Below, one piece after another: positions 14,077 to 34,778 of a stretch of DNA of 64,000 nucleotides. Within the stretch, counting starts at the first letter, position 1. Every line of letters starts with the position of its first letter. Below the pieces are notes generated by a model, which was not told the origin of the DNA, made no database searches, and was given only the letters and a program-made list of their open reading frames with translations. The translations under genes and the position numbers were made by a program. Source of the stretch: a virus; the IMG/VR virus record IMGVR_UViG_3300009183_000058, positions 1-64,000 of that record; one strand, given 5' to 3'.

Positions 14077-14904
14077 TTAACTTGTAACGTTGACCACTTG
14101 AGCCAACTGTAATGAACCGTTGTTTGCGTCTACACCGTTGATGATCTCTGCACCGGACCATGTGACTGTGCCTTCGTCTGTGAAGAAGTTGGTTACATAG
14201 AAGTTTTCACTTGAGTAAATGTTTTCGCCATCATTGCTGTTGCTGTAGTTGCCATAAGTCATGCCGTTCCAGTCACGGATCCACTTGTTAGTGATGTAAC
14301 TGGCATACACAGCGGCCGAGTCGCCTACTGAATATTCAATACTCATGTTACCGGCTGTTGGTGAGCCTGTGTTTGACAACACACATTGACCAACTGGGTA
14401 CGCAGTACCTGTTCCTGATCCAACTGCTACAGCCGTAAATATATCACCAACTGCCGAATCAGCACCACCACCGCAAGCCTGCCAGTCAGTTGTGCCAAGT
14501 ACAGCAATTTGATATGCTTGACCAATAATTAAACTTTCGTCAGCAGTGGTACTGGCTGTGTAAGCAACCAAGAACTTGTGCGCACCTTTCTGGCGGATCA
14601 AACGTCCAGCGCCGGCAGTGGTGCTTGTGCCATCTGCTAAACTGATATTGACTGCTGCCAACACTTCAGGAAACGTAGCACTAGGAGTACTAGTAGCGGG
14701 TGAACCACCAACCACGCCCACAAACTGATCTGAATTGAGTGTGTCGGCTGAGTTATATGGAGTTGCCGGTGAGGTCAAACTACCAAAGTTTGGAAAACCA
14801 GCATCAGTTAAGATGGTTTGGTTGTATGTTGTTACTGGAGGTGTACCGGTTACAGTAGATCCAGAACCAACGTTGTTTTTTTGAATTTTAAGTGCTCTTC
14901 CCAT
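14077..14904 (-). CDS. Probable virion structural (decoration or head/tail surface) protein
   Basis: 275 residues with a strong AAGGAG site before ATG 14904, its own late promoter octamer at 14996-15003 and its own terminator at 14029-14060. It is therefore a monocistronic late unit built for high expression. A segment near residues 125-170 (LIIGQAYQIAVLGTTDW and then GDIFTAVAVGSGTGTAYPVG) is a small beta domain common in phage surface proteins. The C-terminus has an aromatic run around YGNYSNSNDGENIYSSENFY. No T4 gene matches by eye. Strong expression signals and position near the head genes suggest a virion component; decoration protein is a guess. Confidence 0.7.
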   Translation of the reverse strand: MGRALKIQKNNVGSGSTVTGTPPVTTYNQTILTDAGFPNFGSLTSPATPYNSADTLNSDQFVGVVGGSPATSTPSATFPEVLAAVNISLADGTSTTAGAGRLIRQKGAHKFLVAYTASTTADESLIIGQAYQIAVLGTTDWQACGGGADSAVGDIFTAVAVGSGTGTAYPVGQCVLSNTGSPTAGNMSIEYSVGDSAAVYASYITNKWIRDWNGMTYGNYSNSNDGENIYSSENFYVTNFFTDEGTVTWSGAEIINGVDANNGSLQLAQVVNVTS

Positions 14905-14990
14905 TTGATTTCTCCTTAAAGAAGCCCCATGCGGGTTCTAGCCGCTACGCGGTGGGTATTAATCGCCGCATAAAACGCAGAATTGCGTTG
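14905..14990 (-). promoter_or_regulatory. Structured 5' leader of the 275-residue gene
   Basis: Between the late octamer (14996-15003) and ATG 14904 the minus strand has three small hairpins in series: AACGCA-ATTC-TGCGTT, CCGC-GTA-GCGG and CCC-GCAT-GGG, then AAGGAG. The series may stabilise the message or tune translation. Confidence 0.5.
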
Positions 14991-25515: not shown

Positions 25516-26355
25516 ATGCAACAACCCAATCCCCTAAGTCAATTTTTTAGACAACCAGCAATTCACATCAAACTACCCAGCGGGGGTAAGTTCTATCCAA
25601 CAGGTAGTTTAAACATGCCACCCAATGGAGAATTGCCAGTATTGCCCATGACAGCCGTGGACGAAATAACCTATCGCACCCCCGATGCGCTGTTCAATGG
25701 ATCTGCCATAGTTTCGGTTATACAGAGTTGTGTGCCCGGCATTAGAGATCCCTGGGTCATGCCCAGTACAGACATCGACGCTGTGTTAGTGGCCATACGC
25801 ATTGCCAGTTTTGGACACGGAATGGATGTGAATACCACTTGTTCCAGTTGTAACCACCAGGACGAAATCACAGTGGATTTACGAATAATCAATGATCAAA
25901 TCTTGCCAGGAGAGTACGACAAGAGTCTGTCAGTGGGAAATCTTGAATTTTACTTCAAACCCATCAATTACAAAGATGTCAATCAAAACAATCAAGTGCA
26001 GTTTGAACAACAACAAGCACTGCGAATACTAGACAATGCCGAAGCAGAAGAAACTGCCAAACTAGCGCAACTGAATCAAAGCATGAAGGTCATGAATGAA
26101 CTCACATTAAAAACTGTTGCCCAAAGTATAGGTGCAATCAAGACCCCCGACGCACTGGTAACTGAAATCAATTACATTTTTGAATTTCTCAACAACTGTG
26201 ACAGTCGAGTGTTTGCCCAACTGAGAGATCATGTGATTGCACTCAAGCAGGCCAGTGAGATCAAACCAATTAATTTGATCTGTACCGAATGTGGACACAA
26301 GTATTCACAACCGTTTACCCTGGACATGGCAAGTTTTTTCGGGGACGCCTCCTGA
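25516..26355 (+). CDS. gp26: Baseplate hub protein, gp26 family
   Basis: 279 residues from ATG 25516, preceded by GGAG at 25505-25508; T4 gp26 is 208. HIKLPSGGKFYPTGSLNM, LPVLPMTAVDEITYRTPDAL and VIQSCVPGIRDPWVMPSTDI are signatures of the T4 gp26 baseplate family. Two CxxC pairs, C109/C112 (TTCSSCNHQDE) and C256/C259 (LICTECGHKYS), could bind one zinc. T4 gp26 is needed to build the central hub. The last codons AGT TTT TTC carry a -1 slippery heptamer at 26334-26340, after which the -1 frame continues for 76 residues. It heads a short plus operon with apt and the nucleosidase. Confidence 0.88.
   Translation: MQQPNPLSQFFRQPAIHIKLPSGGKFYPTGSLNMPPNGELPVLPMTAVDEITYRTPDALFNGSAIVSVIQSCVPGIRDPWVMPSTDIDAVLVAIRIASFGHGMDVNTTCSSCNHQDEITVDLRIINDQILPGEYDKSLSVGNLEFYFKPINYKDVNQNNQVQFEQQQALRILDNAEAEETAKLAQLNQSMKVMNELTLKTVAQSIGAIKTPDALVTEINYIFEFLNNCDSRVFAQLRDHVIALKQASEIKPINLICTECGHKYSQPFTLDMASFFGDAS
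26334..26340 (+). promoter_or_regulatory. Candidate programmed -1 frameshift site T TTT TTC in gp26
   Basis: In gp26 frame the bases read agT TTT TTC, the X XXY YYZ pattern needed for tandem tRNA slippage. The gp26 stop follows 12 bases later at 26353-26355. Slippage gives FF-RGRLLISSPEE and joins gp26 to the downstream frame ending at 26570, making about 351 residues. Weak stems lie just downstream (CTGAT 26352-26356 with ATCAG 26373-26377; CCTC 26348-26351 with GAGG 26367-26370). Confidence 0.55.
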
Positions 26356-26570
26356 TCTCTAGCCCTGAGGAAATCAGTCAGATGATAGAGGCCATGGACA
26401 AGGACTGTCAACTGATAAGAAACGAGGCGGTAAAACTCAGTTGGTACATGCGTGGAGGATTGGCGTACGATCAGGCCATGGCTCTAAGTGCCAATGATCG
26501 AGAAATGATTGGCGAACTAATCAAAGAGAACTTAGAAACAACCAAGAAGTCCGGATTACCATTCTTTTAA
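26340..26570 (+). CDS. Frame downstream of gp26: frameshift extension or small separate protein
   Basis: The -1 frame after the slippery site encodes 76 residues: RGRLLISSPEEISQMIEAMD, then KLSWYMRGGLAYDQAMALSA and the end ENLETTKKSGLPFF. Small proteins ending in TTKKSG-PFF follow gp26 in other marine T4-like phages as far as I recall, so it is probably real. Two expression routes are possible: the -1 frameshift from gp26, or separate initiation at ATG 26382 (62 residues) with GAGGA at 26367-26371, 10 bases before it. The sequence upstream of 26340 in this frame only shadows gp26. It probably acts with gp26 in hub assembly; the arrangement resembles the G/GT tail chaperones of lambda. Confidence 0.65.
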   Translation, partial: RGRLLISSPEEISQMIEAMDKDCQLIRNEAVKLSWYMRGGLAYDQAMALSANDREMIGELIKENLETTKKSGLPFF

Positions 26571-26577
26571 AAATATC

Positions 26578-27099
26578 ATGAATCTCAAACTGATTATTCC
26601 CACCATACCCAATTGGCCCAGAGCCGGAGTTGACTTCCTTGACATAACTCCTGTGCTGGAAAATCCCACAGCCTTTGCGTACTGTACCGAGTGGTTGAAC
26701 AAGTGTGTTCAAGCAACTGGTGCAACCAGTCTAGTGGCCATGGAAAGTCGAGGATTTCCTTTTGCGGCAGCGGCAGCACATGCAACGAGTCTGCCTTTGG
26801 TGCTGGCACGAAAATCTGGCAAATTGCCCGGTCCGGTATATCAAAAAACTTATGTCACAGAATACAGCACAGACAGCGTGGAAATTAAAATATCAGCACC
26901 AGTGGGTACTCGTCCTCTTGTGGTGGATGATCTCCTGGCCACTGGTGGTACTATACAGGCTGTGTCAGAACTATTAACCTGTAATTTTGCTGTTGATCAA
27001 GTTTCAGCCGCTGTGATTGTGAATCTAAAGTTCTTGCCTGGCGAGTCTGTTTTGAATCAAAACTCAATCCAATTATTTTCACTAGAAGATTATGTATGA
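26578..27099 (+). CDS. apt: Adenine phosphoribosyltransferase
   Basis: 173 residues, normal APT length. It joins adenine and PRPP to give AMP. The PRPP-binding motif is VVDDLLATGGT near residue 118, preceded by the flexible-loop region (KLPGPVYQKTYVTEYSTDSV), and the N-terminal part has FLDITPVLENPTAF and LVAMESRGFPFAAAAAH, the APT equivalents of the purine pocket and the ESRGF motif. It starts 8 bases after the stop of the preceding frame, and its 3' end overlaps the nucleosidase start by 8 bases, so the two are co-translated. The pairing with a nucleosidase that releases adenine makes a complete salvage step. Confidence 0.9.
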   Translation: MNLKLIIPTIPNWPRAGVDFLDITPVLENPTAFAYCTEWLNKCVQATGATSLVAMESRGFPFAAAAAHATSLPLVLARKSGKLPGPVYQKTYVTEYSTDSVEIKISAPVGTRPLVVDDLLATGGTIQAVSELLTCNFAVDQVSAAVIVNLKFLPGESVLNQNSIQLFSLEDYV

Positions 27100-27631
27100 C
27101 AGTATCATTTTAATAGCATTACCTGAAGAGGCACCTGATCTTGCTCACATGATGAATTTGTTTTATACAGGTGTAGGCAAGGTCAATGCTGCCATGGTTG
27201 CCAGCGAAGTTATTGCCAAGTATCGTCCTCAACGTATCATCAACTTTGGCACAGCCGGCGGTATAACAGTATCTCCAGGGTTCTATCAATGTACTCAATT
27301 TGTACAGCGAGACATGACTTGTGAAGCACTAGGATGTGTTCCGGGACAGACCCCATTTGAAACTGGTGTACATATCGGCAACGCAAACGGATTGACCTGT
27401 AGCACTGGGGATAACTTTGTGATGAATCCCAAATTAGAAATACCAGCAGATGTAGTGGACATGGAGGCGTATTCTATTGCCAAAGCCTGCGCAAAGTATG
27501 GCGTGGAGTTTGTGTGTTGGAAATACATCAGCGATCAAGCCAATCAAGATGCACATCATGTTTGGCAACAACAAGTTGCTCAAGGCCAACCATACTATAT
27601 CTCAAAGTTAAAAGATTTACAATTACTATAA
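27092..27631 (+). CDS. Methylthioadenosine/S-adenosylhomocysteine-type nucleosidase
   Basis: 179 residues, shorter than the usual ~230 of MTA/SAH nucleosidases but with the family elements: an acidic pair near residue 12 (LPEEAP), FYTGVGKVNAAMVASEV, IINFGTAGG, and the ribose/catalytic regions VVDMEAYSIAKACAKY and ISDQANQDA, the last carrying the conserved Ser-Asp. Enzymes of this family cleave adenine from MTA, SAH and 5'-deoxyadenosine. The start overlaps apt by 8 bases. With apt it would turn these adenosyl by-products into AMP. The substrate cannot be fixed by sequence; a phage-adapted purine nucleosidase is an alternative. Confidence 0.85.
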   Translation: MYDSIILIALPEEAPDLAHMMNLFYTGVGKVNAAMVASEVIAKYRPQRIINFGTAGGITVSPGFYQCTQFVQRDMTCEALGCVPGQTPFETGVHIGNANGLTCSTGDNFVMNPKLEIPADVVDMEAYSIAKACAKYGVEFVCWKYISDQANQDAHHVWQQQVAQGQPYYISKLKDLQLL

Positions 27632-28046
27632 AGACTTGCTACGCAAGTCTGTTAATTTCGCTCGCGCTCATTAACTGATTATTTCTCTAACTATTTGTTT
27701 TAAGTATCATCCAGATTATGTGGTCATAATTCACCGTATGCACGGTGAAAATGAGAGCGCATCATCCGAGTGACAGCAGTCATCTATACTAATGAGATTG
27801 TGTTTGCACACACGGAGGCGGTTGACCGGTACCCCCTACTCACGCTTCACATATCAACGGAACCCTAGTAACCCGATATAGATCCAAGTCCTATAAGCAT
27901 GGGGTGTATCTTCTTCACAGAGCCCAAACCATTTGTTGCCTTAAGTTAGCAATTTGCCTTTGACGCCCAAGTCTGAATATGGTATCTCGCATATCCTCAA
28001 TGGGGCTGAGCCATAGCACTCAGCACAGTGTCGTGATCGCTGCCTG
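27632..28046. other. 415-base noncoding region rich in hairpins
   Basis: No credible gene lies between the convergent ends of the nucleosidase and GIY-YIG genes. Inverted repeats are dense: AGACTTGC-TAC-GCAAGTCT at 27632-27650, GTTAAT/ATTAAC at 27651-27675, TTCACCGT-ATGC-ACGGTGAA at about 27730-27749, TGAC-AGCA-GTCA near 27771, TGTG/CACA near 27800, ATATG/CATAT near 27978-27995 and GCTGAG/CTCAGC near 28005-28024. I find no tRNA, tmRNA, RNase P or SRP signature. It could be a structured RNA, an intron remnant linked to the GIY-YIG gene, a replication origin, or a terminator cluster. Confidence 0.5.
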
Positions 28047-28475
28047 TTAAATTTTGTTTATAATGTGTGAGCCATGCACCCGAACCTGGATGTGGCCGTT
28101 GTAATAATCTCGTGATTCCAATACTCGTCTTGAAAATTGTTCTCTAGCCTCAATGTATGAGCATTCTGACTTGGAGTTGCAATAGTAAAGTATTTCTCTG
28201 GTGAAGTTTTCGGTGCCTAGTGTGATTACGTCTGCGGTTAATTCTGGGCTTGACCCATAGTACTCTCTCCAATCACTATCGATTTTGGAGCGTATCTTCT
28301 TCCGCTTCTTTGTGCCGTTTTTTTGTTTTACAGTCTTGTATGTTGTCTTGCTAAATTTTGCTAATTTTTTGCCTATGTACTTGCGTCCAGTGAGATTACA
28401 TGTGATCAAGTAAACAAATCCAACACACTCTTCGGGCAACGTCTCAACTGGGGTGTCTTGATATAGCCATGTCAT
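28047..28475 (-). CDS. GIY-YIG nuclease, putative free-standing homing endonuclease
   Basis: 142 residues. The GIY part is GFVYLI (residues 19-24) and the YIG part is KYIGKK (32-37), as VGFVYLITCNLTGRKYIG. A basic insert TVKQKNGTKKRKKIRSKIDS, then WREYYGSS, follows, and the end REQFSRRVLESRDYYNGHIQ matches T4 Seg-like phage nucleases of this small class. It would cut DNA, either for mobility or for exclusion of related phages. It is the last gene of the gp55-gp47-gp46 operon, 61 bases after the radical SAM gene, and adjoins the hairpin-rich region 27632-28046. It lacks visible C-terminal DNA-binding modules. Confidence 0.85.
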   Translation of the reverse strand: MTWLYQDTPVETLPEECVGFVYLITCNLTGRKYIGKKLAKFSKTTYKTVKQKNGTKKRKKIRSKIDSDWREYYGSSPELTADVITLGTENFTREILYYCNSKSECSYIEAREQFSRRVLESRDYYNGHIQVRVHGSHIINKI

Positions 28476-28536
28476 GTGTTGTATGCGATTTATCCTTGCG
28501 TTATAGTTATCTCCATTGTTGCTTATTTGTGATTTT

Positions 28537-29406
28537 TTAAGTTAACTCTGTTTCTCGCTGCCATTGATCGGTAAATCTAGTGGATCCTGTGGTGGTTCCG
28601 CATGTGTCCAAACACACAATATTGGGCTGTGTGCTGTTCCATGATGATTGAATTGACTCAAAATCAGTAACAAAATTCTTTTGAGTTGACCCTAACCAGC
28701 AACACGGACTTTCTCGCCCTTGTGCGTCGATATATGTACTTTGTTCTTTTAACGCATGACAGTCGATACTGGTGGATTGAATTTTGGGCACTTGCCAACC
28801 AATCGGAAATTGTAACTCGTTTGTAAATCCACGCTTGGAAATCTTGGCTCTAAACCATTTGAAACCCATGTCTCGCGCTAGTTGTTCACACTTATCAACT
28901 TCGTGTTGATTGTGTCGATAAACCAACATATCCCAGTGTGCTGAGCCACCCGCTTCAATAAACGATCGGGCATTGCTCATGAGTTTGTTCCAAACAACGT
29001 TTCGTCGATAAGTGGCATTTGTTGACTCTAGTCCGTCGATGCTGAAAACCACATAGTCTTGTGGCTGGTTCAAGATCTTGCCCAACTCATACCACCAGAA
29101 TGTGGTTTGTAAGCCTCCGTTTGTGTTCATACCCAACACAATATCGGGATTGACTTTTCTAAACTCTCTGTAAATGTCTAATGTGTGTTTACCTGCGGCA
29201 GGATCGCCGTAGTTACCACACATGAACATTTTGTCTAGTTGTCGAATTTTTCCTTCATCAAACACCTTTAGAATTTTATACAGATCTAGATGATGTTGAC
29301 GATCTTTTTTAAAATCTGGATCAGTTTCTCGGGCACACAATGCACATGCGGCCTGGCACACGTCTGTGGACTCTAAATGTAAAACTTTTATATCACGCAA
29401 GATCAA
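28537..29406 (-). CDS. Radical SAM protein (SPASM-like)
   Basis: 289 residues. The CX3CX2C iron-sulfur motif is C17-C21-C24 (TDVCQAACALCARE), followed by a GNYGDP segment near residue 65 and the SAM-binding strand VVFSIDGLESTNATYRR. The C-terminal region holds extra cysteines (ESPCCWLGS, CLDTCGT), like a reduced SPASM/twitch domain for a second cluster. The start is TTG at 29406 or 29400: no ATG occurs before the cysteine motif. It overlaps gp46 by 14 bases. The substrate is unknown; peptide or protein modification is usual for SPASM enzymes. Such genes occur in marine T4-like phages without a known role. Confidence 0.85.
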   Translation of the reverse strand: MILRDIKVLHLESTDVCQAACALCARETDPDFKKDRQHHLDLYKILKVFDEGKIRQLDKMFMCGNYGDPAAGKHTLDIYREFRKVNPDIVLGMNTNGGLQTTFWWYELGKILNQPQDYVVFSIDGLESTNATYRRNVVWNKLMSNARSFIEAGGSAHWDMLVYRHNQHEVDKCEQLARDMGFKWFRAKISKRGFTNELQFPIGWQVPKIQSTSIDCHALKEQSTYIDAQGRESPCCWLGSTQKNFVTDFESIQSSWNSTQPNIVCLDTCGTTTGSTRFTDQWQRETELT

Positions 29407-31156
29407 AATCCGTATTGTAACTGGTGAAACCGTTCTCTTTGATCACCTTGAGAATGTTCTCCACACGCCCGGCAAGTTCGTCTCGATGACTCACAAGCCA
29501 GATTGATTTGTGCCGTTCTCTACTCATTTTTTTGAGCAGGGCTAGTGCGTTCTCTACACCTTGTGTGTCTAACCCGTTGTCAATCAGTTCATCGATGAAC
29601 AACAAGTTAATGGGTGAGTATAAACTTTCCCATACATCACGGAACGCCCAACTCATGCTCAAGATCAATCGGTTACGTTCACCACGTGATAAGTTGTCAA
29701 AGTCCAGTTCACGACCCAGTTCTTCGATGCTTACAGTTAGATCATTCTGGAACTTCACAGTATGCGGCAAGCCAATGCGATCTAAATAGTGTGTGAGTCT
29801 TGCGTTCAAGTAACTCAAGTTTTGATCAATGATTTTCTTGCGCACAAAACTGTCTTTGGATGTCAATAGTTTGAGCAAGAAGTCTTGGTGATCTTGTACT
29901 CGAGTGAGTTCGTTTAAGGTGTCGTATGACACAACTTGTAAGGCTTGACCTTGCATGTCAGTGATTTGTTCTTCATAAGGATCTGCATCTGCTTGACGTG
30001 CAGTCAAATCTTTGCGCAGTGTCTCCACAGTATTGCGATGGTTCAGTGCTTGCTCGAGCGAATCATAAAACACAGTGGGTGCTGTGCCCAACGCACCAAT
30101 GTTAGCAATAGTATCTTCGTGCTCCTGGCGCTGTGTGTCATTAGCCAAGAGTTGTAGTGCTGTTTCTTGTACCAAGGCCTGTTTGGCCTGCTTCAACTCA
30201 TCTTGTTTGTCATCATGCAAGTCTTGGCCACATGAGTGACACCGGTGAGCATCTAAGGCCTCAATCTCTATTCGGAGTTTGTCTAAAAGTTTCTTGAGTT
30301 TAGCATCATCTGCGTCAATTTGACGAATGTATCGGATGGCATCGTCTAGGGACTTTTTCTTCACATGAAACGCTTCAAGATCTCTATGTGCTTGTACTTC
30401 GGCATCAATGTCTATGTGTTCAAGATCCGCAATGGCCTGTTCTAATTTTCCTACATCTTCATCACGCCGGGCAATCCACAGTCGTTGACGTTTACGCAGA
30501 CTTTCGATTTGTTCCTCAATACGCTTGTTGGCTTCTTGTACAGCACGTATACGAAACTCTTCGGCTTGGATAGCATCTTTGGTCTGCCGGTTGAGTTCTT
30601 TGATTGCATCAGCACGTTCCGATAACAAAGTAATACCCAACAACTGCTCAATAATAGTGCGTTGATCATTAGCCTTCAAACTCAAGAACGGCTCTGTATA
30701 AGTGTTCAGTGCCAGCACATGTTTGAACATGTCATGACTCATGTTCATCACACGCTCGATAGCATCTTGTGTTTCTCTTGAGTCACCTTGTGCTTCGTCT
30801 TCAGCAGCCTTGTGTTCATTGTTGATATAAAAACGCAACACATTAGGTTTACGTCCTCGTTCAATTCTGTACTCTTGTCCGTTAACACTAAAGTCCAAAC
30901 TGACCAACATGTTCTTGCCATTGGTTTTGTTTACTAGATTGTCTTTGCGGATGTTTGATAATGCCTGCCCATACAAGGCATAACTTAGTGCATTGATGAT
31001 TGTGGTCTTACCAGTACCGTTGCGACTACCATCCCCGCCTAGATCTAGATTTTCGCCAAGTACTAAAGTTAGGTCACTGCGGTCAAAGTCAATACCTTGA
31101 GTAGCGGCACCCACACTCATAAAATTCTTCACGGTTAAATTTTTAATTTGAATCAA
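29393..31156 (-). CDS. gp46: Recombination endonuclease subunit gp46 (Rad50/SbcC-like ATPase)
   Basis: 587 residues (T4 gp46 560). The N-terminal MIQIKNLTVKNFMSVG matches gp46, and Walker A is GSRNGTGKTT with Lys50, preceded by a loop LGENLDLGG. Long coiled coils flank a zinc hook CHSCGQ near residue 305. The signature SRGERNRL is near residue 488 and Walker B LLFIDELIDN near 517. With gp47 it resects DNA ends for recombination-dependent replication and host DNA breakdown. The start is TTG 31156, with GGAG 7 bases before; an in-frame stop two codons upstream excludes a longer form, and the next ATG would remove the conserved first strand. Confidence 0.95.
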   Translation of the reverse strand: MIQIKNLTVKNFMSVGAATQGIDFDRSDLTLVLGENLDLGGDGSRNGTGKTTIINALSYALYGQALSNIRKDNLVNKTNGKNMLVSLDFSVNGQEYRIERGRKPNVLRFYINNEHKAAEDEAQGDSRETQDAIERVMNMSHDMFKHVLALNTYTEPFLSLKANDQRTIIEQLLGITLLSERADAIKELNRQTKDAIQAEEFRIRAVQEANKRIEEQIESLRKRQRLWIARRDEDVGKLEQAIADLEHIDIDAEVQAHRDLEAFHVKKKSLDDAIRYIRQIDADDAKLKKLLDKLRIEIEALDAHRCHSCGQDLHDDKQDELKQAKQALVQETALQLLANDTQRQEHEDTIANIGALGTAPTVFYDSLEQALNHRNTVETLRKDLTARQADADPYEEQITDMQGQALQVVSYDTLNELTRVQDHQDFLLKLLTSKDSFVRKKIIDQNLSYLNARLTHYLDRIGLPHTVKFQNDLTVSIEELGRELDFDNLSRGERNRLILSMSWAFRDVWESLYSPINLLFIDELIDNGLDTQGVENALALLKKMSRERHKSIWLVSHRDELAGRVENILKVIKENGFTSYNTDFDLA

Positions 31157-31974
31157 ATGTCAACTCCGTTATCTCTAAGCATTATAGCAATTTCGTTGGT
31201 ATTTGTAAACCAGTTGGCATAGTCATTGTGGGGAACTTCGATACAATATTTTAACCAAATAACATAGTAAATCACTGCCTGAGACCAAACATCGGTTATG
31301 TGTGATAGATCGCAATGTTGACCGGTGATAATATTAGACAAAATATTTTTTGCGTTTGTTGCTGGACCAATATATTTTGCATTGGCTCTACGCCATTCAC
31401 GCCACAAGTCATGAAAATGATCGGTCTTTACAATTGAGTTCAATACACTGTAGAATTTATCATAATCTTCATATATTTCACCTACATCTAAGCATTGTTC
31501 GTTGGTGGCTTGCCAAGCATGCCTCAACGGGTGATCACGCAGAAATAAAAAATATTTTTCTCGTTGTGCCCAAGAATCTTGAGTGTTCCAGATGTCTATA
31601 GGTAATTGCTCTTCAAGAGTGCTATCCATGGCTTTTTCAATCATGGCCCTTGCCACAACTGGCCATGAAAATTTTGAATAGCAAATTTTTATCACAGTTG
31701 CATTGGGAAATGTAGACCGAAAAGCGTCAGATTTAGAATCGTTGTTGCCATTGTCTACAAGCACACAATAATTTTTATCAGGACAAAACTCAACACCATT
31801 TGGCCAATACCCGTGATAATATTTGGGAACAACCAAATCAAGATCATGACTGTTACCGTTCTCAGAAAATTTTAATTGTTTTTTTGGCCTTACAAAATTG
31901 TTGCCATGTAGAGTCAGCACAGCATTGATAAAATGTCCAAACCCTCCACCAGGATACCAAACGCAATAAATCAT
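31153..31974 (-). CDS. Protein of unknown function between gp47 and gp46
   Basis: 273 residues from ATG 31974, three bases after the preceding gene's stop. It begins MIYCVWYPGGGFGHFINAVL, a glycine-rich loop after a strand (GGGFGH) as in nucleotide- or PAPS-type binding folds, then has LVDNGNNDSKSD and VIKICYSKFSWPVVARAMIE. The C-terminus has a regular pattern of aromatic residues (HNDYANWFTNTNEI). The general shape recalls sulfotransferase-like or glycan-related phage proteins, but I cannot assign it. Its stop overlaps the TTG start of gp46 by 4 bases, so it is co-translated. Confidence 0.65.
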   Translation of the reverse strand: MIYCVWYPGGGFGHFINAVLTLHGNNFVRPKKQLKFSENGNSHDLDLVVPKYYHGYWPNGVEFCPDKNYCVLVDNGNNDSKSDAFRSTFPNATVIKICYSKFSWPVVARAMIEKAMDSTLEEQLPIDIWNTQDSWAQREKYFLFLRDHPLRHAWQATNEQCLDVGEIYEDYDKFYSVLNSIVKTDHFHDLWREWRRANAKYIGPATNAKNILSNIITGQHCDLSHITDVWSQAVIYYVIWLKYCIEVPHNDYANWFTNTNEIAIMLRDNGVDI

Positions 31975-31976
31975 TT

Positions 31977-32381
31977 TTAATTTGAATCGCTGAGTATAAT
32001 TTTGTTGCCGTAAAGCAAGTGATATTGTATCCAATCTGCGGCAAAAAAGTCGATGTTGACTTTGCCTTGTTGCCACGTTGTGGTAACAATAAATTTATCC
32101 AAGTTAGCAGGAGTGTAGTTACAAATTTGATCAAGTATGTTGGGAGCAAGATCAAGACCTCCTAGTGTAATTTTTTTGAGAGAAACAGAGGCTGCCTCCG
32201 AACCCAATTGTTTTATGTGAAACAAAAGTTGATTGGGAATGGAAAATTTAAAATTTAATTCCACAACTGAATTGTTGATTTTTGATATTTCTGCAATCAA
32301 CTGGTCACGGTCTTGTAGTGTCACACACATGTTATCTGACACATGACTAAATTCTAAAATAAGTCTAAGGTCAGTAGGCAT
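31977..32381 (-). CDS. Small unknown protein between gp47 and gp46
   Basis: 134 residues. MPTDLRLILEFSHVSDNMCV starts 11 bases inside the radical SAM gene end, and the stop is 3 bases before the next gene, the tight spacing of a real operon member. No domain is recognised. The segments SVSLKKITLGGLDLAPNILD and FIVTTTWQQGKVNIDFFAAD suggest an alpha/beta fold. It may be a partner of the radical SAM enzyme or its substrate, judged by position only. Confidence 0.6.
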   Translation of the reverse strand: MPTDLRLILEFSHVSDNMCVTLQDRDQLIAEISKINNSVVELNFKFSIPNQLLFHIKQLGSEAASVSLKKITLGGLDLAPNILDQICNYTPANLDKFIVTTTWQQGKVNIDFFAADWIQYHLLYGNKIILSDSN

Positions 32382-33765
32382 CTAAATTAAATTTCAGTTT
32401 ATTGCGACAAAGATCAACTAACTCTTTGTGATATTTTTGTCTTGTGTCTGCATCTACATGAGCGGTGCTCCATTCACGCAAATTATTATTTTTTATCATG
32501 ATACCATGCTTAGATATATTTCTTTCTAATCCAGTGCCAGGTAAAATTGTCAAAGGACTAAGAAATAATCTTACAATTGTATCATTGTATTGTACCCGAT
32601 CTTGAAACCATTGTTGCGTAAATTCAAAATCTGCAACGGTTTCTGTAGGATAGCCAGTGATGATCATCAGTATGATTTTGACATTGTATTTTTTGGCCAT
32701 TTCGAGATGATAGTCGATGTCTTCGTTGTCAAAATATTTTCCAAGATTTTTCCTCACATGAGGAACCACACTTTCGATTCCTAAACTCAATGTAGCATTT
32801 GTGCCACTCAATTGCTCCCACATGATTTCAGGATGTTGACTTTTTGGTCTTACTATAAATGAACCATTCCAACTGATTTGTTCTGGACGATATCTGCCTT
32901 GATTATAATCATACATGATTTTTAATAATCTTTTAAACTCTTTGAGATTACCATTGGACAAACTACTTCTAAAATCAAAATCTCTCATGTTATACTGTTT
33001 GATTTGGAATAACATTTCAGCAAATATTTTTTCAGCACTTCTTGATTGAAATTTTTCCCAATATTCGATGATGTCGCAAAATTCACAACTTCTCACACAA
33101 CCCTTTGCGTCAACTAATGGCATAAAACTTTGTGAGTACAAGTAAAAATTATAGTCTGACCAGTCTGGGTAAGGCAAAGAATCAAGATCTTTAACAGGTT
33201 GCCATATGTCGGAATTTATTCCAGGATAGTTAAAATTGCCTTTGACATATTCTATTAGAGCCTGATCGCCATCGCCGGCTATCCAATCATCAACAAGGCC
33301 TCTGTTTTTAATAACGTTACGAAAACGATCATTTATATTGGCCACTTGAAATTTAATTCCTGGACCCCCAATTACAATTTTTACGTTAGGGCACAGTTGT
33401 CTAAGTATCAAACATAACCATGCAGTAAAATTTTGACACTCATAGGTTAACAAACTTAGTGCAATAATAGTTGGTTTTTCTTTAACTATTCGATTGGCAC
33501 AATAAAACAATATTTTAGATATTTCTTGTACAACCCAATCGTCGGCACCTTGTGTTTTGAAAAATTTCTTAAGATTATCTTGTTCAGGATGTGATCTAAT
33601 TTTGACTAAAACTTCTATGTTGAGATCAATGGCTGTTGATTTGATGTTGGCCCGGGATAATGACGCTTTTAACACAGCCGGAGCAGCCATTGGGGCATGC
33701 ATACCTTCGACCAAAGGCACACTTGCAATAACTACGTGATGGTTGTTGATAGTTGGTTCACTCAT
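32371..33765 (-). CDS. Radical SAM enzyme with B12-binding-like N-terminus
   Basis: 464 residues. Residues 10-180 have the layout of a cobalamin-binding Rossmann domain seen in B12-dependent radical SAM proteins (VLKASLSRANIKSTAIDLNI; VKIVIGGPGIKF; WIAGDGDQALIEYVKG), although the classical DxHxxG cobalamin motif is missing. The radical SAM core follows, with C223-C227-C230 (GCVRSCEFCDI), then SLGIESVVPHVRKNLGK and MIITGYPTETVADFEFTQQW. The first base of ATG overlaps the gp47 stop (ATGA). Class and substrate are unclear. It lies between the two subunits of the Mre11/Rad50-like nuclease, a place where phages often keep accessory genes. Confidence 0.85.
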   Translation of the reverse strand: MSEPTINNHHVVIASVPLVEGMHAPMAAPAVLKASLSRANIKSTAIDLNIEVLVKIRSHPEQDNLKKFFKTQGADDWVVQEISKILFYCANRIVKEKPTIIALSLLTYECQNFTAWLCLILRQLCPNVKIVIGGPGIKFQVANINDRFRNVIKNRGLVDDWIAGDGDQALIEYVKGNFNYPGINSDIWQPVKDLDSLPYPDWSDYNFYLYSQSFMPLVDAKGCVRSCEFCDIIEYWEKFQSRSAEKIFAEMLFQIKQYNMRDFDFRSSLSNGNLKEFKRLLKIMYDYNQGRYRPEQISWNGSFIVRPKSQHPEIMWEQLSGTNATLSLGIESVVPHVRKNLGKYFDNEDIDYHLEMAKKYNVKIILMIITGYPTETVADFEFTQQWFQDRVQYNDTIVRLFLSPLTILPGTGLERNISKHGIMIKNNNLREWSTAHVDADTRQKYHKELVDLCRNKLKFNLDAY

Positions 33766-34778
33766 AGAGTCTGATAGATCTTCAACAATAACTTGTTGTC
33801 GTAGAATTCTGAATCAATATTGGTAATTTGATCAGTAACAATCTGATCCACTGATTCAAATTTGACTTCACCTGGCGCCATGTCAGTGTCCACAGATGAG
33901 TTCTTGTTGGGTATCAAAGCCATCTCTCTTAGCCCGTATTCTTTAATATAGGTTTCTTTGATAAAATTGGCTTCTTCATATGATATTTCAATATCTAGTT
34001 GCACACGCACATGCATGTCTTTTGCAAGTAAGGTGGGTGCATTATCAATGATGCTGGCCAGGCCTAGCACACGATATCTAGGTTGATCAGGCCAGGCATG
34101 ATACACAGGATCTTGTCCCCATTCAATAATGGTCAAGCCACGTTCGTCGTCTCCGGCGTCGGCATAGTTGTGTGGGAAACAATTGCCAATGTAGGTAATG
34201 TTCTTTTTGGTCTGACGCTTGTGAAAGTGTCCAGTGAACACATGCTCAAAGTTGTTGAAGTCTTCCCTGCGCACTTCGCCGTGATCCGGCATCTCTACCA
34301 TGGCGTTCATCATGTACCCAGGTAGTTCAAAGTGCCCAAACATGTACTTGCCCTTTAGTTTGGGTATGCGTTTGTGGTCATCGGCTACAAGCCAAGGAGC
34401 AATGACAACGTCGCCACTGCTAAACCAATCGTTGCATATCTGTACGCGAGGGAGATGCTTTGCCCATTCCACACTTTGTATGTCGCGCTTATCTCGATAA
34501 TACAAATCATGATTACCAGGAATGAAATACACGTTTTCAAAATTATCATTCATGTGCTCCAGTGCCCTGAGGCTGTAGTTTAGGGTAACAATATTTAGGC
34601 TGGCACGGTTGTTGTGCCAGTCGCCAAGAAACAAACAGGTTTCACAACCTTCTGATCGGGCCTTGGCAGTGGCCCATTTTACAAAGTTCAGGCAGTCCTC
34701 GTTGTGTTGAGTGCTGTTGCTTTTCAAGCCAAAGTGAATGTCTGTGAAGACCGCGGCTTTACGAAATAGGTTAGTCAT
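33762..34778 (-). CDS. gp47: Recombination endonuclease subunit gp47 (Mre11/SbcD-like)
   Basis: 338 residues (T4 gp47 339). All phosphoesterase motifs are present: TDIHFG (residues 12-17), GDWHNN, GNHDLYY, and the two late metal-binding motifs GHFELPG and GHFHKRQ. It forms the nuclease subunit with gp46 for end resection. It starts 12 bases after the gp55 stop, with a GCAGG site, and is followed by the radical SAM gene with an ATGA overlap. Unlike T4, gp46 is not next: three genes are inserted between the subunits. Confidence 0.95.
   Translation of the reverse strand: MTNLFRKAAVFTDIHFGLKSNSTQHNEDCLNFVKWATAKARSEGCETCLFLGDWHNNRASLNIVTLNYSLRALEHMNDNFENVYFIPGNHDLYYRDKRDIQSVEWAKHLPRVQICNDWFSSGDVVIAPWLVADDHKRIPKLKGKYMFGHFELPGYMMNAMVEMPDHGEVRREDFNNFEHVFTGHFHKRQTKKNITYIGNCFPHNYADAGDDERGLTIIEWGQDPVYHAWPDQPRYRVLGLASIIDNAPTLLAKDMHVRVQLDIEISYEEANFIKETYIKEYGLREMALIPNKNSSVDTDMAPGEVKFESVDQIVTDQITNIDSEFYDNKLLLKIYQTL

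Follow-up and report, generated by a model that had tools for sequence, protein, structure and literature searches.

The stretch of viral DNA considered here (the window) comprises the first 64 kb (positions 1 to 64,000) of IMG/VR record IMGVR_UViG_3300009183_000058, a virus record of 94,559 bp. Among known phages, jumbo members of the T4 superfamily have the portal proteins most similar to the one encoded here (Atu_ph07, 50% identity; PA5oct and Callisto, 49%), and the record is therefore taken to be a fragment of a freshwater jumbo phage. Our analysis concerns two adjoining plus-strand genes, apt and nuc, which encode a predicted adenine phosphoribosyltransferase (APRT) and a predicted nucleosidase of the type that acts on 5'-methylthioadenosine (MTA) and S-adenosylhomocysteine (SAH), together with the interval behind them, in which a structured RNA is very probably encoded. 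The original prediction had noted the two genes next to two radical S-adenosylmethionine (SAM) enzymes and had proposed, as a hypothesis, that they may dispose of the 5'-deoxyadenosine released by the latter, recycle purine or lower SAM-derived inhibitors of methylation. The features at the centre of this work are the following.

26578..27099, plus strand: apt, adenine phosphoribosyltransferase, 173 amino acids (NF002636, APRT structures, motifs)
27092..27631, plus strand: nuc, MTA/SAH-type nucleosidase, 179 amino acids (PF01048, fold, catalytic residues)
27092..27099, plus strand: overlap of apt and nuc, 8 bases (sequence)
27632..27650, plus strand: hairpin after nuc, possible terminator (pattern match only)
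27691..28046, minus strand: conserved structured RNA element (candidate for a new family), located directly behind the SegE-like gene, on the strand of that gene and in the interval that separates it from nuc
28047..28475, minus strand: SegE-like GIY-YIG endonuclease, 142 amino acids (PF19835, 113.6 bits)

The apt and nuc genes and their occurrence

The coordinates first given are borne out by the sequence. The start codon of nuc (ATG, 27092) precedes the stop codon of apt (TGA, 27097-27099), which makes the overlap exactly 8 bases, as had been stated. The possible terminator behind nuc belongs to a segment (27600-27720) whose fold is ordinary when compared with shuffled sequences (z -0.68). 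Three matches to the T4-type late promoter TATAAATA were counted where two are expected by chance, none of them near apt-nuc, and a search for sigma-70-like sites found no enrichment.

Nuc belongs to the PNP_UDP_1 superfamily (PF01048, 65.7 bits against a cut-off of 25.1). Its top NCBIfam model is NF004168 (PRK05634, 'nucleosidase'), which it matches over nearly the full length (residues 3-165) but with a score of 100.8 bits, under the cut-off of 129. The AlphaFold model built from an alignment of 61 sequences has a mean predicted local distance difference test score (pLDDT) of 92.5 and a predicted template modelling score (pTM) of 0.90, and supersedes an earlier, poor model from 14 sequences (pLDDT 69). 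This model has the fold of an MTA/SAH nucleosidase (MTAN): against the Helicobacter pylori MTAN 5cce, 177 of the 179 residues are aligned with a Z score of 22.9 and a root-mean-square deviation (rmsd) of 2.2, and the best 50 chains of the Protein Data Bank found with Foldseek are all MTANs or futalosine-type nucleosidases. In the alignment of 61 phage and bacterial relatives, five residues (E13, D107, M124, E125 and D148) never vary, and two others, K144 and W158, hardly do. By alignment to MTANs, E13, M124-E125 and D148 of Nuc are the catalytic Glu, Met-Glu and Asp; E13, M124-E125, D148, K144 and W158 correspond to what we take to be Glu12, Met173-Glu174, Asp197, Arg193 and Phe207 of the Escherichia coli enzyme. 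At the position of Phe207 in the hydrophobic 5' pocket of E. coli MTAN, Nuc has the nearly invariant W158, this being the single pocket position compared. From the alignment and the model, Nuc is predicted to work like an MTAN, in agreement with the class first assigned to it. It has the fold and catalytic residues in common with the bacterial MTAN/Pfs/MtnN enzymes (H. pylori 5cce, E. coli 1nc1, Brucella 4pr3) and differs from them in its length (179 residues as against about 230), in being carried by a phage and in that its gene often overlaps apt.

The assignment of Apt, likewise made in the original prediction, is supported by a score of 150.1 bits with the APRT model NF002636 (cut-off 125) and of 46.2 bits with Pribosyltran (cut-off 26.3); scores with TIGR01090 and other APRT models are under their cut-offs. 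The nearest solved structures are the APRTs 5b6h and 4mb6. Moreover, the loop for phosphoribosyl pyrophosphate (PRPP), DD..ATGGT, and the RGF, RK..LP and Y..EY motifs are invariant in 11 Apt relatives. The motifs of the PRPP and adenine sites are thus retained, and Apt is, as judged from its sequence, a putative motif-complete APRT which, at full length and with all motifs present, differs from known APRTs in being encoded by a phage gene.

The pair recurs well beyond the window. Among 84 nuc-bearing phage contigs, apt lies directly upstream of nuc in 45 (38 of 77 after one near-identical group was collapsed), and this linkage exceeds chance. The identical 8-base overlap is present in L007, L008, L033, L037, the Verrucomicrobia contig L122 and others. 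Four settings can be described. In freshwater jumbo phages, the pair occupies the same spot as in the window. In marine T4-like phages, the order is nrdA-nrdB-apt-nuc-SegE (16 contigs, one of them the named phage C48C1), and in other marine T4-like contigs (L033, L035, L036, L037) apt-nuc is followed by two conserved open reading frames (ORFs) and then by a thyX-like gene. Finally, metagenome-assembled genomes of Verrucomicrobia have apt-nuc in the same overlapping order, and in Polynucleobacter isolates the two genes are adjacent but divergent; the coupling therefore recurs in different gene orders. In the nuc tree, the marine phages form one group and the Verrucomicrobia another, and the branches joining both to the jumbo-phage copies are mostly weak. 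In the open literature searched, no description was found of a phage nucleosidase-apt pair, of a phage MTA nucleosidase with apt or of a phage 5'-deoxyadenosine nucleosidase.

Matches to nuc in two records titled 'Acinetobacter phage MD-2021a' (CAKLQH020000009 and CAKLQF020000013) were not counted as phage evidence, the match lying amid the host genes ileS, lspA and ssu; the record inspected looks like a host contig. In many jumbo relatives, three small conserved ORFs (166, 144 and 111 amino acids; L012:8726-9995) precede nuc, and the window is without them.

A candidate structured RNA behind the SegE-like gene

The interval between nuc and the SegE-like gene spans 415 bases, and its DNA is conserved over about 350 nt, mostly at 80-93% identity, in jumbo relatives with or without nuc. 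Stop codons occur in all six frames of every sequence aligned for the element at 27691-28046. On the minus strand, the consensus of 36 sequences folds into 74 pairs at -61.7 kcal/mol, with 28 pairs changed on both sides, and 97.2% of the pair cells hold standard pairs. An RNA on the plus strand was rejected, the consensus fold being weaker there (-37.2 kcal/mol). The alignment has a covariation score of 0.226, whereas shuffled alignments give 0.107 (sd 0.004) and slid controls at most 0.054, the latter comparison favouring the RNA structure because it was derived from the same sequences. The firmest evidence is that of the compensatory changes seen in helices 1, 3, 6 and 13.

Searched against Rfam 15, the element matched no family, group I introns included, either at the gathering thresholds or up to an E value of 5, and it was found in no phage of the annotated collection. 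A 19-base word from its core occurs in at least 120 viral contig stretches, and the RNA itself in over 100 freshwater viral contigs. At 167 of 201 RNA loci, overlapping loci of one contig being counted apart, a SegE-like gene lies on the same strand, usually 1-20 nt upstream. Other surroundings were also met: at L266:7003-7916, where SegE is missing, the RNA directly follows a same-strand nucleosidase gene that shares 38% identity with nuc, and in L240 it lies in a contig stretch without a homologue of any window protein. Weak matches at a fitting position in G044 and G046 suggest diverged copies of the RNA. Taken together, the minus strand at 27691-28046 very probably encodes a large structured RNA that is non-coding and belongs to a new family found in freshwater jumbo phages, usually directly behind a SegE-like gene, where novelty is judged against Rfam 15 and the annotated phage collection searched. 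The large ornate RNAs GOLLD, ROOL and OLE (PMC12286853) are also large, highly conserved, built of many helices and found in environmental bacteria or phages; no covariance model of an Rfam family matches the present element, and the likeness is one of kind only. Of the contents of this interval, the RNA is more surprising than the apt-nuc pair.

Two further observations were made here. The Rfam 'freshwater-2' cis-regulatory RNA is found elsewhere in the window (14902-14990, minus strand, 69.4 bits). Moreover, the SegE-like protein of the window matches phrog_447, a family named 'NAD synthetase', at 8.6e-38, and the Pfam family SegE_GIY-YIG at 9e-33; the label 'NAD synthetase' of WJE87983.1 in C48C1 (OQ984149.1) looks like a transferred misannotation.

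Radical SAM genes and their distribution

The remaining genes around the pair are listed below.

26289..26570, plus strand: ORF of 93 amino acids with no assigned function, just upstream of apt and conserved at the same place in jumbo relatives
28537..29406, minus strand: radical SAM protein 1, 289 amino acids (PF04055, 35.2 bits; phrog_21308)
29393..31156, minus strand: gp46-like (SbcC-like) subunit (phrog_77)
31153..32076, minus strand: ORF of 307 amino acids (no Pfam, PHROG or NCBIfam family)
31977..32381, minus strand: ORF of 134 amino acids (no Pfam, PHROG or NCBIfam family)
32371..33765, minus strand: radical SAM protein 2, 464 amino acids (PF04055, 36.4 bits; weak B12-binding N-terminus)
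33762..34778, minus strand: gp47-like (SbcD-like) subunit (phrog_100)

Both radical SAM proteins score above the family cut-off and each has a CxxxCxxC motif; the B12-binding match of the second is weak (PF02310, 24.8 bits against a cut-off of 32.1). Their genes lie on the strand opposite to apt-nuc, in a group with the SegE-like, gp46-like and gp47-like genes and a late sigma factor gene, so that the view of separate operons holds. The original count of two radical SAM genes is right for the window but incomplete for the record, which has eight PF04055 matches over its 94.6 kb, the other six at 68-78 kb. These six proteins stand in a run (L038:4943-14905, about 68.4-78.4 kb of the record), interspersed with ORFs without known family. 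Downstream of this run (L039:530-9974), the translations alone read as a NodU-type carbamoyltransferase, a DegT-type aminotransferase, a nucleotide-sugar epimerase and a ThyX-like protein, which suggests a glycan-modification cluster.

Between 13 and 19 radical SAM domains were counted in relatives of 330-365 kb, and this richness characterizes the phage group as a whole rather than the nuc carriers. Comparable numbers have been reported for a TARA T4-like genome with 12 radical SAM genes (PMC5332604) and for Aeromonas phage 332-Vera with 8 (PMC12390700); a nucleosidase is mentioned in the text of neither paper, unlike what is found in the phage studied here. The co-occurrence of nuc with radical SAM genes was examined in 32 contigs of at least 50 kb, near-identical contigs being collapsed for the density counts. 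Within the jumbo phages, the 17 contigs that carry nuc have 4.96 radical SAM domains per 100 kb and the 11 that lack it 4.86 (Mann-Whitney p = 0.35), a comparison in which many contigs are fragments (near-full-length genomes number only 4 with and 3 without nuc), a few nuc-bearing contigs are not shown to be jumbo, and the statistics ignore kinship. Of the 50 contigs related by portal protein, 3 have nuc, which can sit far from the portal gene (as in G041). G032, whose portal protein is 98% identical to that of the window, has 11 radical SAM genes and no nuc in 200 kb. In G046, G047 and G048 (342-353 kb; 14, 13 and 16 radical SAM genes), there is neither nuc nor a PF01048 protein of any kind, and no nuc-free genome was found in which another PNP_UDP_1 protein replaces nuc. 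Conversely, the marine apt-nuc carriers have one radical SAM gene in 62-156 kb (1.07 per 100 kb). A specific tie between nuc and radical SAM genes is thus not supported: the strong one that had been predicted is absent, and a weak one is possible. Lack of co-occurrence had been named in the original prediction as an outcome that would refute it, and this is the outcome observed.

A possible role of the pair in adenine salvage

The reading that we favour, and hold to be somewhat more probable than all others together, is that apt and nuc serve adenine salvage as a translationally coupled pair, through which by-products of SAM chemistry (MTA, SAH and 5'-deoxyadenosine) would be turned into adenine and then into AMP. 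From its fold and catalytic residues, we infer that Nuc would hydrolyse such 5'-modified adenosines to adenine and a modified ribose; Apt would then join adenine and PRPP to form AMP, which would feed the (d)ATP pool, in the marine relatives directly beside the phage ribonucleotide reductase. The 8-base overlap would allow the two genes to be translated together. Every SAM-using enzyme of the host and the phage would also be relieved of inhibitors by the nucleosidase step, and radical SAM turnover would accordingly be at most one source among several. To judge from the nrdAB and thyX genes that adjoin the pair in marine phages, the benefit to the phage would be nucleotide supply, and the genomes with nuc only suggest that removal of the by-products can suffice by itself. 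SAM decarboxylase (PF02675), a possible source of MTA, is absent from the 23 records searched for it. In E. coli, Pfs is the main manager of MTA, SAH and 5'-deoxyadenosine and serves purine salvage too (PMC10986504). The Pfs step and the dihydroxyacetone phosphate (DHAP) shunt of that organism likewise begin with a nucleosidase that frees adenine from MTA and 5'-deoxyadenosine (PMC10986504); the partner here is apt, and no kinase, isomerase or aldolase turned up beside the pair, none having been sought.

Several points weigh against this reading. Nuc is below the cut-off of every curated MTAN equivalog model (NF004079, 70 against 169; TIGR01704, 51.2 against 73.8), and it is therefore filed as MTAN-like, with no claim to formal membership. 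Unlike the bacterial enzyme, it has Lys144 in place of the residue that we take to be Arg193 of E. coli MTAN. Moreover, nuc comes without apt in about half of the phages that carry it, and a search for apt throughout the near-full-length genomes G025, G041 and G105, which have nuc only, found none anywhere. Such genomes imply that nuc can act with the Apt of the host, and hence that Nuc can fulfil its role without AMP being formed by the phage. Finally, SAM by-products may yield only a small flux compared with what DNA synthesis requires.

Among the alternatives, the disposal of 5'-deoxyadenosine from the phage's own radical SAM enzymes, as originally proposed, has known biochemistry behind it, since accumulation of this compound harms such enzymes and bacteria remove it by nucleosidases of this kind (PMC6079011), cleavage and relief of inhibition being established for E. 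coli Pfs (PMC10986504, PMC6079011). It also fits the wealth of radical SAM genes in these phages (8 in the 94.6-kb record and 13-19 in contigs of 330-365 kb) and the several rich genomes with nuc but no apt, which point to removal rather than salvage. We nevertheless consider it unlikely, because the density of these genes is equal with and without nuc, G046, G047 and G048 dispense with nuc and any PF01048 protein, and the pair is also carried by marine phages with a single radical SAM gene; besides, a host enzyme may do the work. The enzyme identities and the idea of adenine salvage thus stand, and the link to radical SAM does not. Slightly less likely still is that Nuc chiefly removes SAH, and MTA with it, and so spares the methyltransferases of phage and host, adenine salvage being secondary. 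Methyltransferases are inhibited by SAH, which MTANs commonly accept as a substrate (PMC10986504), and nuc without apt would be accounted for, but the frequent coupling with apt and nrdAB points to nucleotide supply.

An activity on ordinary or deoxy nucleosides, for instance on deoxyadenosine from degraded host DNA, would make the pair a means of recycling host purines, in line with the nrdAB and thyX neighbours in marine phages and with the failure of Nuc to reach any MTAN equivalog cut-off; in view of the MTAN-type fold and catalytic residues and of the aromatic W158 at the position taken by Phe207 in the 5' pocket of E. coli MTAN, we regard it as improbable. The least probable of the readings considered, by our judgement, is counter-defence, in which the pair would restore adenine nucleotides after host defence enzymes have freed adenine, or remove an adenosine-based signal. 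Apt would recycle adenine released by nucleosidase effectors, and nuc has a short PADLOC match to a 'PN-superfamily' effector (E 3.7e-6, 34 residues), which reflects the shared superfamily; however, no defence or anti-defence gene was found adjoining the pair here, and apt-nuc is present in bacterial genomes too.

To conclude, if the salvage reading is right, several large T4-like phage lineages possess the means of converting SAM waste to AMP in two steps, and apt-nuc joins the known nucleotide-metabolism genes of phages. The negative result for radical SAM genes is useful in itself, as it separates two features that seemed linked in one genome. The RNA behind the SegE-like gene, if confirmed, would be a new and testable structured RNA in uncultured jumbo phages.

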